From Sulfuricurvum sp. (GTDB lineage: Bacteria > Campylobacterota > Campylobacteria > Campylobacterales > Sulfurimonadaceae), in assembly GCA_030694265.1 (NCBI GenBank), contig JAUXYP010000008.1, positions 124,001 through 188,000 on the forward strand: DNA of 64,000 nt, given 5' to 3'. Positions 50,494 to 54,351 of this stretch are shown here, piece by piece. The number at the start of each line of letters is the position of its first letter. Position 1 is the stretch's first letter. A model generated the notes under the pieces. The model ran no database searches and was not told the origin of the DNA. It worked only from the letters and a program-made list of their open reading frames with translations. The translations under genes were made by a program, and so were the position numbers.

Positions 50494-51015
50494 TTACTCT
50501 TTATAATTGCTAATAGCATCTTGGAGGATTTTAGTTGCGGATGCTTTGTCCTCAAATCCTTTTACTTTTACCCATTTATTAGGCTCAAGCATTTTGTAGG
50601 TTTCAAAGAAGTTTTTGATTTTTGCCAAGGTGTGTTTTGGAATATCACCAAGATCTTGAATCTCATCAAATGAAGGATCTATTTTTGAAGTCGGAACAGC
50701 GAGGAGCTTTTCATCAATACCGCTTTCGTCTTCCATGATTAAAACACCAACTAAACGACAGTTGGTAACACATCCCTCGACCATTGGATATTCTGTCAAG
50801 ATAAGAATATCAGCAGGATCGCCATCTTGAGAAAGGGTTTTGTTGACAAAACCGTAGTTCGCAGGATAATACATTGCTGAGTGCATAACACGATCAAGGA
50901 CTAAAGCACCGCTCTCTTTTTCTACTTCGTATTTGATGTTTGAACCACAGGCAATTTCAATAATCGCTTTGACTTTGTCCGGATTTTCACCGTATCCGAT
51001 TTTATTAAGATCCAT
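50494..51015 (-). CDS. ppa: Inorganic pyrophosphatase
   Basis: A 173-residue family I soluble pyrophosphatase. The signature is DGDPADIL (about 64-71), with YPANYGFV before it and DPSFDEIQDL after. It hydrolyses pyrophosphate in the cytoplasm and pulls biosynthetic reactions forward. The length is normal. Upstream is a divergent gene with 95 bases between. Confidence 0.95.
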   Translation of the reverse strand: MDLNKIGYGENPDKVKAIIEIACGSNIKYEVEKESGALVLDRVMHSAMYYPANYGFVNKTLSQDGDPADILILTEYPMVEGCVTNCRLVGVLIMEDESGIDEKLLAVPTSKIDPSFDEIQDLGDIPKHTLAKIKNFFETYKMLEPNKWVKVKGFEDKASATKILQDAISNYKE

Positions 51016-51110: not shown

Positions 51111-51491
51111 ATGAAGTTTATACTAGAATCACGTCAACGTATTAAGACGTGCAAATTAAACAAGGGACAGTGGGACGTGGAATTACTAACTAAAGTAATG
51201 AAATATTTGAACGTATTTCAAGCCAAAAATCTCTCAGAGTTACAAGTGTGTTCAGGACACACTGGACGTGATTCAGCCTTGTGTGATCGTACAGAGGGTG
51301 CAAAAGTTGCGGCAATTGCTACAGCACTGCACCATCATGAGACTGTTGAAAATGATGTACGAGCACGAGTGGCTGCAATTGCTGCTGCACTTCATCATCA
51401 TGAACTCGAAACAGCATCTCAGAATAACGGTGCATGGGGGCTTGCTGCTTTAGTGGCCGCGATTCATCACCACAAAAACACTAAGAAGTAG
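51111..51491 (+). CDS. Small protein with three Ala-rich His-triplet helices, upstream of PycB/OadA
   Basis: A 126-residue soluble protein with a striking pattern: three short units, each an alanine-rich amphipathic helix ending in HHH, at about 64-76 (VAAIATALHHHE), 86-98 (VAAIAAALHHHE) and 111-123 (LAALVAAIHHHK). The N-terminal 60 residues are ordinary and include three Cys. The helices resemble the C-terminal 'AAIxAA' tails of sodium-pump decarboxylase subunits but there is no membrane segment as in OadG. It ends 12 bases before the carboxyltransferase gene, so co-expression is expected. Start uncertain: ATG 51111 has no strong ribosome site; an internal ATG near 51199 is possible. Metal binding by the histidines is inferred. 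Confidence 0.6.
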   Translation: MKFILESRQRIKTCKLNKGQWDVELLTKVMKYLNVFQAKNLSELQVCSGHTGRDSALCDRTEGAKVAAIATALHHHETVENDVRARVAAIAAALHHHELETASQNNGAWGLAALVAAIHHHKNTKK

Positions 51492-51503
51492 GGAAGCTGA
51501 TAA

Positions 51504-53327
51504 ATGGCAAAAAAATACATCGACGTAATGGACACAACGTTCCGTGACGGTTTTCAATCCGTTTTCGGCGGACGGGTGTTGATGAACGATTTCTTTCCTG
51601 CGGTAGAAGCTGCGAAAGAAGCAGGGATCACCCATTTTGAATTCGGCGGCGGAGCTCGTTTTCAAAGCCTTTTTTTCTATCTCAATGAAAATGCATTTGA
51701 GATGATGGATAAATTTCGTGCCATTGTAGGTCCTGATGCAAATCTTCAGACGCTCGCTCGCGGCGTCAATACGGTCATGCTTGATACGGGAAGCCGTGAA
51801 ATGGTTGATTTGCATGCGAAGATGTTCAAAAAACATGGAACAACTACGATCCGAAATTTTGATGCGCTCAATGACATTGAAAATCTTAAATATTCAGGTG
51901 AGCGAATCGTTCACCATGGTTTAAAGCATGAAGCGGTTGTTACGTTAATGGATCTTCCTCCAGGGTGTGTAGGTGCTCATGATGTTCCATTTTATGAAAA
52001 AACCCTTCGTGATCTTTTGGATTCAGGGATTCCCTATCACTCTATCTGTTTTAAAGATGCAAGTGGAACGTCAAGCCCGCAAAAGGTGTTTGATACAATC
52101 AAGATGGCACGTAAGTTGGTTCCTGAGGGGACACATCTGCGTCTTCATACGCATGAAACAGCGGGAGTGAGTGTTGCATGTTATCTTGCAGCTCTTGATG
52201 CCGGTATTGATGGTATTGATATGGCGGCAGCTCCTGTGAGTGGCGGTACGTCACAGCCTGACATTTTGACCATGCTGCATGCAGTTAAGGGCAAAAATTT
52301 TGATTTAGGCGGTTTAGAACTGGAAAAAATTCTTCAATATGAAGATGTTTTGGGTGATTGTTTGAAAGACTATTTCATCCCACCTGAGGCAACGCAGGTG
52401 TCACCGCTCATTCCATTCTCACCAATGCCAGGCGGTGCATTGACAGCGAATACACAGATGATGCGTGATAACAATATGTTGGACCGTTACCCTGAAGTCA
52501 TTCGCGCAATGCGTGAAGTGGTAGAAAAAGGGGGATACGGTACATCGGTTACTCCTGTGTCTCAATTTTATTTCCAACAAGCGCTTAACAATGCATTGAT
52601 GGGTCCATGGAAAAAAATTGCACCGGGTTATGGCAAAATGGTATTGGGTTACTTTGGTAAAACACCAACGGCACCTGATGCCGAAGTTATTCGGATTGCC
52701 TCAGAACAGTTGAAGCTTGAACCGACATCTGAGAATGCGATTGATATCGCAGATCGTGATGAAAAGAAATCGATTGTGTATTGGACTAAAGCGCTAAAAG
52801 AAGAAGGCATTGAGGCTACGGATGAAAATATTTTCATTGCGGCTTCATGTGATGTCAAAGGAATTGCTTTCCTCAAAGGGGAAGCCGTGGTAAACGTACG
52901 AAAAAATGGCCCGAAAGTGCCAGAATCACTTAAAACAACACTACAGGAGAATTTTAATATGGCAAATGGTACATACACAGTAATCGTAGACGGACAACAA
53001 TATAATGTACAAATTGTAAATGGAAATGCAAATGTTCAATCAGTAGTAGCAGCCCCTGTAGCTGCAGCAGTAGCAGCACCAGTTGCAGCACCAGTTGCAG
53101 CACCGGCTGCAAACGCAAATGCAATTTGTGCTGAACTTCCAGGTTCAGTATTCAAACTGGTTGCATCAGTTGGTGACAGCGTGAATGCTGGCGATAAGAT
53201 TATGATTTTGGAAGCTATGAAAATGGAAATTGATGTACTTGCGCCACGTGCGGGAAAAGTGACATCAATCAGCGTCCAACCAAATGATAAGATTGAAGCC
53301 GGTCAGGTACTTGCTGTAGTAGAGTAA
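51504..53327 (+). CDS. Biotin-dependent carboxyltransferase, pyruvate carboxylase subunit B / oxaloacetate decarboxylase alpha
   Basis: A 607-residue enzyme. N-terminal HMGL-like metal-binding carboxyltransferase domain (about 5-270) starts DTTFRDGFQS and has LHTHETAG; then a PYC/OADA conserved domain (about 290-480), a Pro/Ala linker (about 510-540, VAAPVAAPVAAP repeats) and a biotinyl domain with Lys573 in EAMKMEID. In Campylobacterota this subunit pairs with a separate biotin carboxylase (PycA) for anaplerotic oxaloacetate synthesis, or with OadB/OadG as a sodium pump. Neither partner is in the window. An Ala/His-rich gene sits 12 bases upstream. A stem-loop terminator follows. Confidence 0.9.
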   Translation: MAKKYIDVMDTTFRDGFQSVFGGRVLMNDFFPAVEAAKEAGITHFEFGGGARFQSLFFYLNENAFEMMDKFRAIVGPDANLQTLARGVNTVMLDTGSREMVDLHAKMFKKHGTTTIRNFDALNDIENLKYSGERIVHHGLKHEAVVTLMDLPPGCVGAHDVPFYEKTLRDLLDSGIPYHSICFKDASGTSSPQKVFDTIKMARKLVPEGTHLRLHTHETAGVSVACYLAALDAGIDGIDMAAAPVSGGTSQPDILTMLHAVKGKNFDLGGLELEKILQYEDVLGDCLKDYFIPPEATQVSPLIPFSPMPGGALTANTQMMRDNNMLDRYPEVIRAMREVVEKGGYGTSVTPVSQFYFQQALNNALMGPWKKIAPGYGKMVLGYFGKTPTAPDAEVIRIASEQLKLEPTSENAIDIADRDEKKSIVYWTKALKEEGIEATDENIFIAASCDVKGIAFLKGEAVVNVRKNGPKVPESLKTTLQENFNMANGTYTVIVDGQQYNVQIVNGNANVQSVVAAPVAAAVAAPVAAPVAAPAANANAICAELPGSVFKLVASVGDSVNAGDKIMILEAMKMEIDVLAPRAGKVTSISVQPNDKIEAGQVLAVVE

Positions 53328-53388: not shown

Positions 53389-54351
53389 TTATCTAGGTAA
53401 TAAATTTTGTGCAGACTCTTCCATACTACTGATGATAAGCGGAATAATATCATGGCTTTTTGTTTTGTCGATGAAACCATCTGCTCCTAAGCCTGCTGCT
53501 TCACGTTTGTTATTCTCTCCGGTCATAGAGCTATTGACGATAATAGGAATATTTTTGGTTTCTGGATTTGCTTTTAGCATTTTTACAACGGTAAACCCTG
53601 ACATCTCTGGCATTTCAATATCCGTTATGATTGCGGGGATCGAGGAAGGGTTAGGATGCGCTGAAATATAGTCTATTAACTCTTTTCCATTATTGAATAT
53701 TTGATAAGAAAGTTTGGCATTGGCAAATATTTGTCGTAAATGCCTCTGAGCTGTTTTTGAATCTTCTGCAATAAGGACAGTACCATTTCGAAGCTTGTCG
53801 GGTATGACTAAGTTATCAATATTATTAGGGGATTCATGTATGTTGACCATAGCTTGTGGGATGACATCTGCCAAGAGTTTTTCATAGTCGAGTACTAAGC
53901 ACAAGCTTCCATCATCTAATCGGGTGTCATTGATAACAAGTCCATCTTCTCCTAAGCGATAGCTATCAGGTGCGTGCATTTCATTCCAATTCTTCTTAAT
54001 AACACGATGTGCGAACATAATACGAATACCGATAATAATCCCATTAAAATCGCAAATCAAAAGATTCGAGGCTTGCTTTTGCTCTTTATCAAGTTCCGAG
54101 CCTAACCATTTTGGCAAATTGAGAATCGGGATCTGAAGTCCGCGTAAAACAATAGTACCCTCAAGTAGTGGATGTGCTGCTGGAATAAGAGTTAAGTGAT
54201 GGTGCTTTGATTCAACTACTTCACGTGTTTTAAAAACGTTTATAGCGTAGTAAGAAGATGTTTGTGCTGCATCAATTTTGAATATGAGTAACTGTACTTC
54301 ATTGTTTTTTGCCAGGTTAGTGGACGCATCTACGTGTTCTAAAAGAGACAT
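53389..54351 (-). CDS. cheV: Chemotaxis protein CheV (CheW plus receiver domain)
   Basis: A 320-residue protein: CheW-like domain (about 18-168) and a receiver (about 190-315) with phospho-acceptor Asp244 (IITDIEMP), the acidic pair in IAEDSK (195-197) and Lys in FIDKT. CheV couples chemoreceptors to the CheA kinase and tunes its activity; Campylobacterota typically carry one to three. It stands alone with 114 bases to the divergent molybdopterin gene. Confidence 0.92.
   Translation of the reverse strand: MSLLEHVDASTNLAKNNEVQLLIFKIDAAQTSSYYAINVFKTREVVESKHHHLTLIPAAHPLLEGTIVLRGLQIPILNLPKWLGSELDKEQKQASNLLICDFNGIIIGIRIMFAHRVIKKNWNEMHAPDSYRLGEDGLVINDTRLDDGSLCLVLDYEKLLADVIPQAMVNIHESPNNIDNLVIPDKLRNGTVLIAEDSKTAQRHLRQIFANAKLSYQIFNNGKELIDYISAHPNPSSIPAIITDIEMPEMSGFTVVKMLKANPETKNIPIIVNSSMTGENNKREAAGLGADGFIDKTKSHDIIPLIISSMEESAQNLLPR

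Follow-up and report, generated by a model that had tools for sequence, protein, structure and literature searches.

A predicted soluble relative of OadG with three tail helices precedes the carboxyltransferase gene pycB in Sulfuricurvum

What does a small protein with three alanine-rich helices, each ending in a histidine triplet, do directly in front of the gene for a biotin-dependent carboxyltransferase? The locus lies in a stretch of 64,000 nucleotides of a Sulfuricurvum sp. contig (JAUXYP010000008.1, positions 124,001 to 188,000), hereafter the window. A preliminary description based on the letters of this DNA had drawn attention to the three helices, which are present as reported (Table 1). 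The HHH triplets begin at positions 51330, 51393 and 51465 (residues 52, 73 and 97 of the 104-residue form discussed below), so the spacing from start to start is 21 and 24 residues, not 22 and 25 as first given. None of 100,000 composition shuffles contained three HHH.

The open reading frame of 126 codons also exists, but its probable product is shorter. The true start is probably the GTG at 51177 rather than the ATG at 51111, since in many relatives the frame is interrupted by stops ahead of the equivalent M/V-[EAGK]-LL start, and the ATG is further disfavoured because it sits 5' of a conserved block, TTTATACTAGAATC. The resulting protein has 104 amino acids and 11.2 kDa, and the sequence AAGGGA lies just 5' of the GTG. 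The conserved block itself shows a possible resemblance to a -10 element; a consensus promoter scan called no promoter at this block. Between the stop codon and the pycB/oadA start codon (ATG, 51504) lie 12 bases, in agreement with the preliminary description, and the two genes are probably co-transcribed. They also share one reading frame (51177-53324), with TAG, TGA and TAA in the 15-base gap, an arrangement that recurs in five related genomes.

Table 1. Features of the triple-tail locus, in window coordinates
Feature	Position	Strand	Remarks
Divergent upstream neighbour, presumed inorganic pyrophosphatase	50494..51015	-	also stands upstream of canonical oadG-oadA-oadB loci in congeners
ORF as listed	51111-51491	+	126 aa from ATG 51111
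Conserved TTTATACTAGAATC block, possible -10 element	51117..51135	+	alignment of upstream DNA
Triple-tail OadG-like gene	51177..51491	+	104 aa, probable GTG start; in-frame stops in relatives, AAGGGA upstream, TIGR01195 match
N-terminal segment without membrane helix	51177..51296	+	counterpart in a congener matches PF04277 beyond its membrane part
Tail helix 1, GAKVAAIATALHHH	51297..51338	+	tail-HMM 10.4 bits; pN/pS 0.055
Tail helix 2, RARVAAIAAALHHH	51360..51401	+	tail-HMM 14.2 bits; pN/pS 0.073
Tail helix 3, WGLAALVAAIHHH	51435..51473	+	tail-HMM 12.7 bits; pN/pS 0.226
pycB/oadA	51504..53327	+	607 aa: carboxyltransferase, PYC_OADA domain, short association strands, BCCP; proposed partner
CheW + receiver protein, CheV type, downstream neighbour	53389..54351	-	in congeners, oadB lies between pycB and the CheV-type gene

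The preliminary description knew of no described family for this protein, which is not quite right, as it derives from a known one. OadG is the gamma subunit of the sodium-pumping oxaloacetate decarboxylase and is regarded as the membrane tether of the pump. The family model TIGR01195 (oadG_fam) matches the window protein in three stretches (E 3.9e-6); the best of them falls on positions 61-83 of the 84 in the model, at its C-terminal end. The score of 27.3 is under the curated cut-off of 36.05, as expected if the membrane part is missing, and that of PF04277 (16.1) is under its cut-off of 27. A tail HMM, for which 30 OadGs from other Campylobacterota genera were used, detects all three units (Table 1), the best of 2000 shuffles reaching 7.9 and the runner-up ORF in the window 3.3 bits; the early impression that the tail recalls decarboxylase small subunits is thereby supported. 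Moreover, residues 2-53 of the protein of a congener (G029, L007) align to positions 26-75 of the PF04277 (OAD_gamma) profile, a match that takes in the profile's post-membrane part and also the first tail, so that the N-terminal segment also looks like an OadG minus its membrane helix.

The soluble appearance noted in the preliminary description holds as well: the best 19-residue Kyte-Doolittle mean of the window protein is 0.61 and that of the 26 triple-tail proteins considered below at most 1.23, none of them showing a membrane segment, whereas the OadG of a congener reaches 2.24. In three relatives (L024-L026) most of the N-terminal segment is missing and little remains beyond the three tails. 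Judged by sequence comparison, each unit is a homologue of the OadG C-terminal helix, and the triple-tail protein is a soluble relative of OadG, set apart from OadG in the strict sense by the membrane helix, the cut-off and OadB. It shares with OadG the alanine-rich C-terminal helix with histidines, the position directly 5' of oadA/pycB and the neighbours seen in congeners, but it lacks the membrane helix, has three tails instead of one and occurs in genomes that usually have no OadB. The OadG-related small transporter subunit NF040909 is likewise a partial OadG, but there the situation is reversed: what its 37-position model matches, weakly, is the membrane part at the OadG N terminus. In the open-access literature, neither a soluble OadG nor one with several tails was found described. 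When PDB sequences were searched with a profile made from the triple alignment, only leucine-rich repeat proteins came up, a chance-like result.

The distribution of the gene was followed in 41 Sulfuricurvum genomes. As the preliminary description had thought worth checking, the triple-tail protein precedes pycB in relatives, namely in 26 of the 41 genomes, that of the window included. In nine others the same slot is taken by a canonical OadG that combines a membrane helix with a single ...KVAAIAAAIHHHQTTQN-type tail; oadA and oadB come next, and wherever the flanks were read these loci are bordered by the same pyrophosphatase-like gene (which we take to be an inorganic pyrophosphatase from recognition of its sequence) and the same CheV-type gene. 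In one further genome (G026) an oadG-oadB pair lies close to a contig end and pycB was not detected, in another (G016) pycB was found without a tail and without OadB, and four genomes have no pycB at the threshold used. OadB (PF03977) is present in 3 of the 26 triple-tail genomes vs all nine genomes with an operon OadG (Fisher p 3e-6, uncorrected for shared ancestry), and it was not found in the genome of the window, which is 100% complete.

In the three triple-tail genomes with OadB (G012, G029 and G035) this gene lies elsewhere, beside an OadG of its own (L101-L103). These oadG-oadB pairs have no adjacent oadA, and the sole PycB detected follows the triple-tail gene; one alpha subunit may therefore serve two partners in these genomes. 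The orphan OadBs group with the operon OadBs of the genus and so do not stem from a distant source. The genomes compared in the Fisher test are not independent of one another: in the PycB tree the triple-tail sequences form one group with a support of 60/84, rising to 100/99 when the tail-less G016 is included, a topology compatible with a single replacement event. In G016, the closest tail-less relative, a malic-enzyme-like gene stands directly before pycB in the place of the tail gene (L091:906-4192). Between triple-tail genomes and congeners with an operon OadG, PycB is 53-57% identical in its C-terminal biotin domain and its association strands vs 90-95% in the carboxyltransferase domain. 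A partner-specific change of the association domain and BCCP of PycB was considered, but it is not decisive, as these parts also diverge between canonical pairs of different genera.

A sample of 397 genomes of the phylum yielded no further triple-tail protein outside the genus, and a scan of genome contigs gave matches only in records named Sulfuricurvum, Campylobacterales bacterium and Helicobacteraceae bacterium. The other genera of the family have OadB in 20 of 20 sampled genomes, and the OadGs read there have the membrane helix. Four other Campylobacterota genomes keep a tail before pycB although OadB was not found in them. Two of them (G068 and G086) have a membrane OadG with a single tail (L092:1792-2055 and L093:4669-4935), and in a third (G128) a membrane OadG carries two tandem C-terminal tails (L245:1486-1812, L253), which is a separate case of tail multiplication. 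In a fourth (G075, L094:1857-2024), pycB is preceded by an ORF of 55 aa that shows no evident membrane helix and has a single tail-like end (KKTAAVIAAILHMKGM); a biotin carboxylase gene lies nearby. An ORF of 38 aa with a weak tail-like end was identified in G079. Neither of these two ORFs reaches any relevant family model, and their assignment as tails is tentative. Finally, G088 and G097 contain pycB, but neither OadB nor a tail ORF upstream of pycB was found there; as they and G016 keep pycB, a tail is not always required.

The enzyme in which this PycB would act is probably a soluble pyruvate carboxylase formed with a separately encoded PycA, since such a biotin carboxylase is encoded elsewhere in the genome of the window (G000:C11:140415-141824; it shares 63% identity with the PycA-like protein of G075). 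In the two-subunit pyruvate carboxylase of known structure (5KS8, PMC5059739), the C-terminal helix of PycA, alanine-rich like the tails described here, lies inside a barrel formed by the strands of two PycB chains; it is, however, a single helix on the biotin carboxylase chain, whereas here a separate protein carries three. The HGE motif of that PycB class was not seen in the association region of the window PycB, where the strands read YTVIVDGQQYNVQ and the alignment to 5KS8 is weak. The idea that the tails substitute for a missing PycA helix is weakened, since PycA ends in a potential helix in both kinds of genome (in that of the window the C-terminal stretch reads MKHIEQVIAAINAKNLTVRH); having its own helix, PycA may not need the triple-tail protein. 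AlphaFold predicted helices and no overall fold for the triple-tail protein alone (pTM 0.28). When the tails were fused to PycB by reading on across the three stop codons in the natural frame, PycB was well predicted, and the tails had pLDDT values of about 30-55 and no confident docking.

According to PMC7274780, which cites Balsera 2011 and others, the alpha subunit needs the OadG tail to stay on the beta-gamma complex, and this tail binds alpha (through the OadA association domain) at about 1:2 and promotes alpha tetramers; beta-gamma is described there as a 3:3 hexamer. Small subunits that aid the assembly of biotin carboxylases are also known elsewhere. One is the epsilon subunit of acyl-CoA carboxylases (TfAcCCE, PMC7835884), small, non-catalytic and bound to the carboxyltransferase subunit; it belongs with another carboxyltransferase class, no repeated helix is claimed for it, and we compare it by function with no claim of homology. 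We consider it fairly probable, by analogy with these systems, that the triple-tail protein is a soluble gamma-like, multivalent assembly subunit for PycB, left after loss of the sodium pump. The association strands of one PycB chain, or of two, would clasp each alanine-rich helix, one molecule would hold several PycB dimers together and, as OadB has usually been lost in the same species, PycB would work as a soluble enzyme. Binding, stoichiometry and effect on assembly are inferred here from the literature on oxaloacetate decarboxylase and two-subunit pyruvate carboxylase; the present analysis contributes the tail homology to OadG, the shared locus, the conservation, the purifying selection and the association with OadB loss. 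An assembly factor for the biotin enzyme was among the roles first suggested, and the OadG tails, the OadG slot and the selection on the repeats lend it support. More speculatively, and with rather less than even confidence on our part, the single three-helix chain might mimic the three gamma tails of the beta3-gamma3 trimer and bring up to six PycB chains together in a defined soluble particle.

The first suggestions also included a regulator, a role that is possible. The tails could be a decoy that competes for PycB with the C-terminal helix of PycA or, where present, the OadG-OadB pair, leaving PycB idle or switching it between partners. PycA and the triple-tail protein do coexist, and in three species with one detected PycB each the triple-tail gene stands alongside a separate OadG-OadB pair. 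However, 23 of the 26 species lack OadB as a competitor, and a position immediately upstream of pycB, with probable co-transcription, better suits a stoichiometric subunit, so we regard a decoy as unlikely. It is improbable, too, that the main role lies in metal binding, with the HHH clusters taking up Zn2+ (or Ni or Co) to pass it to the carboxyltransferase or to assist carboxyl transfer. OadG itself has been reported to hold Zn2+ and to enhance carboxyl transfer (PMC2881705), and eight of the nine histidines are invariant over the 26 genes. But in 6 of these genes Arg replaces the ninth, making the third cluster HHR, and AlphaFold predicted no confident bundle. Moreover, canonical OadGs of the genus, with their single tail, also end in HHH, and other genera commonly have HH or HHH. 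The triplets are thus a legacy of ordinary OadG tails, and what the triplication multiplied was the tail as a whole; it did not create a metal site.

Two further explanations would deny the gene a function. After loss of OadB and the membrane helix it could be a mere oadG remnant, and the related G016 indeed keeps pycB without any tail; alternatively, the ORF could be spurious, its listed start being misplaced and many relatives having stops in the first 22 codons. A lack of conservation of the repeats, which the preliminary description had named as one outcome that would speak against its reading, is not what was observed. Exactly three tails are present in 26 of 26 triple-tail genes, the median dN/dS among them is 0.13 (76 pairs of moderate divergence), and pN/pS is about 0.4 in the linkers vs 0.06-0.23 in the helices. 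By these measures the gene is under purifying selection, with the helices more constrained than the linkers, which contradicts a remnant and makes it very hard to uphold. A spurious ORF is contradicted by the codon-level selection from 51177 onward and by the family-profile match, and we give it practically no credence.

If the triple-tail protein does organise PycB into such a soluble particle, the carboxyltransferase of a sodium pump would have turned into a cytoplasmic carboxylase upon loss of OadB, and the retention of tails after this loss in several lineages would mean that the gamma tail has a function independent of the pump. The conservation of a membrane-free, three-tailed version beyond the loss of the pump suggests that the tail aids the carboxyltransferase itself, for example in assembly or activation. 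The protein would also offer soluble material for studying the poorly resolved interaction of alpha and gamma subunits, and the genus would present an apparent conversion, among its own members, of an energy-conserving membrane complex into a soluble enzyme.
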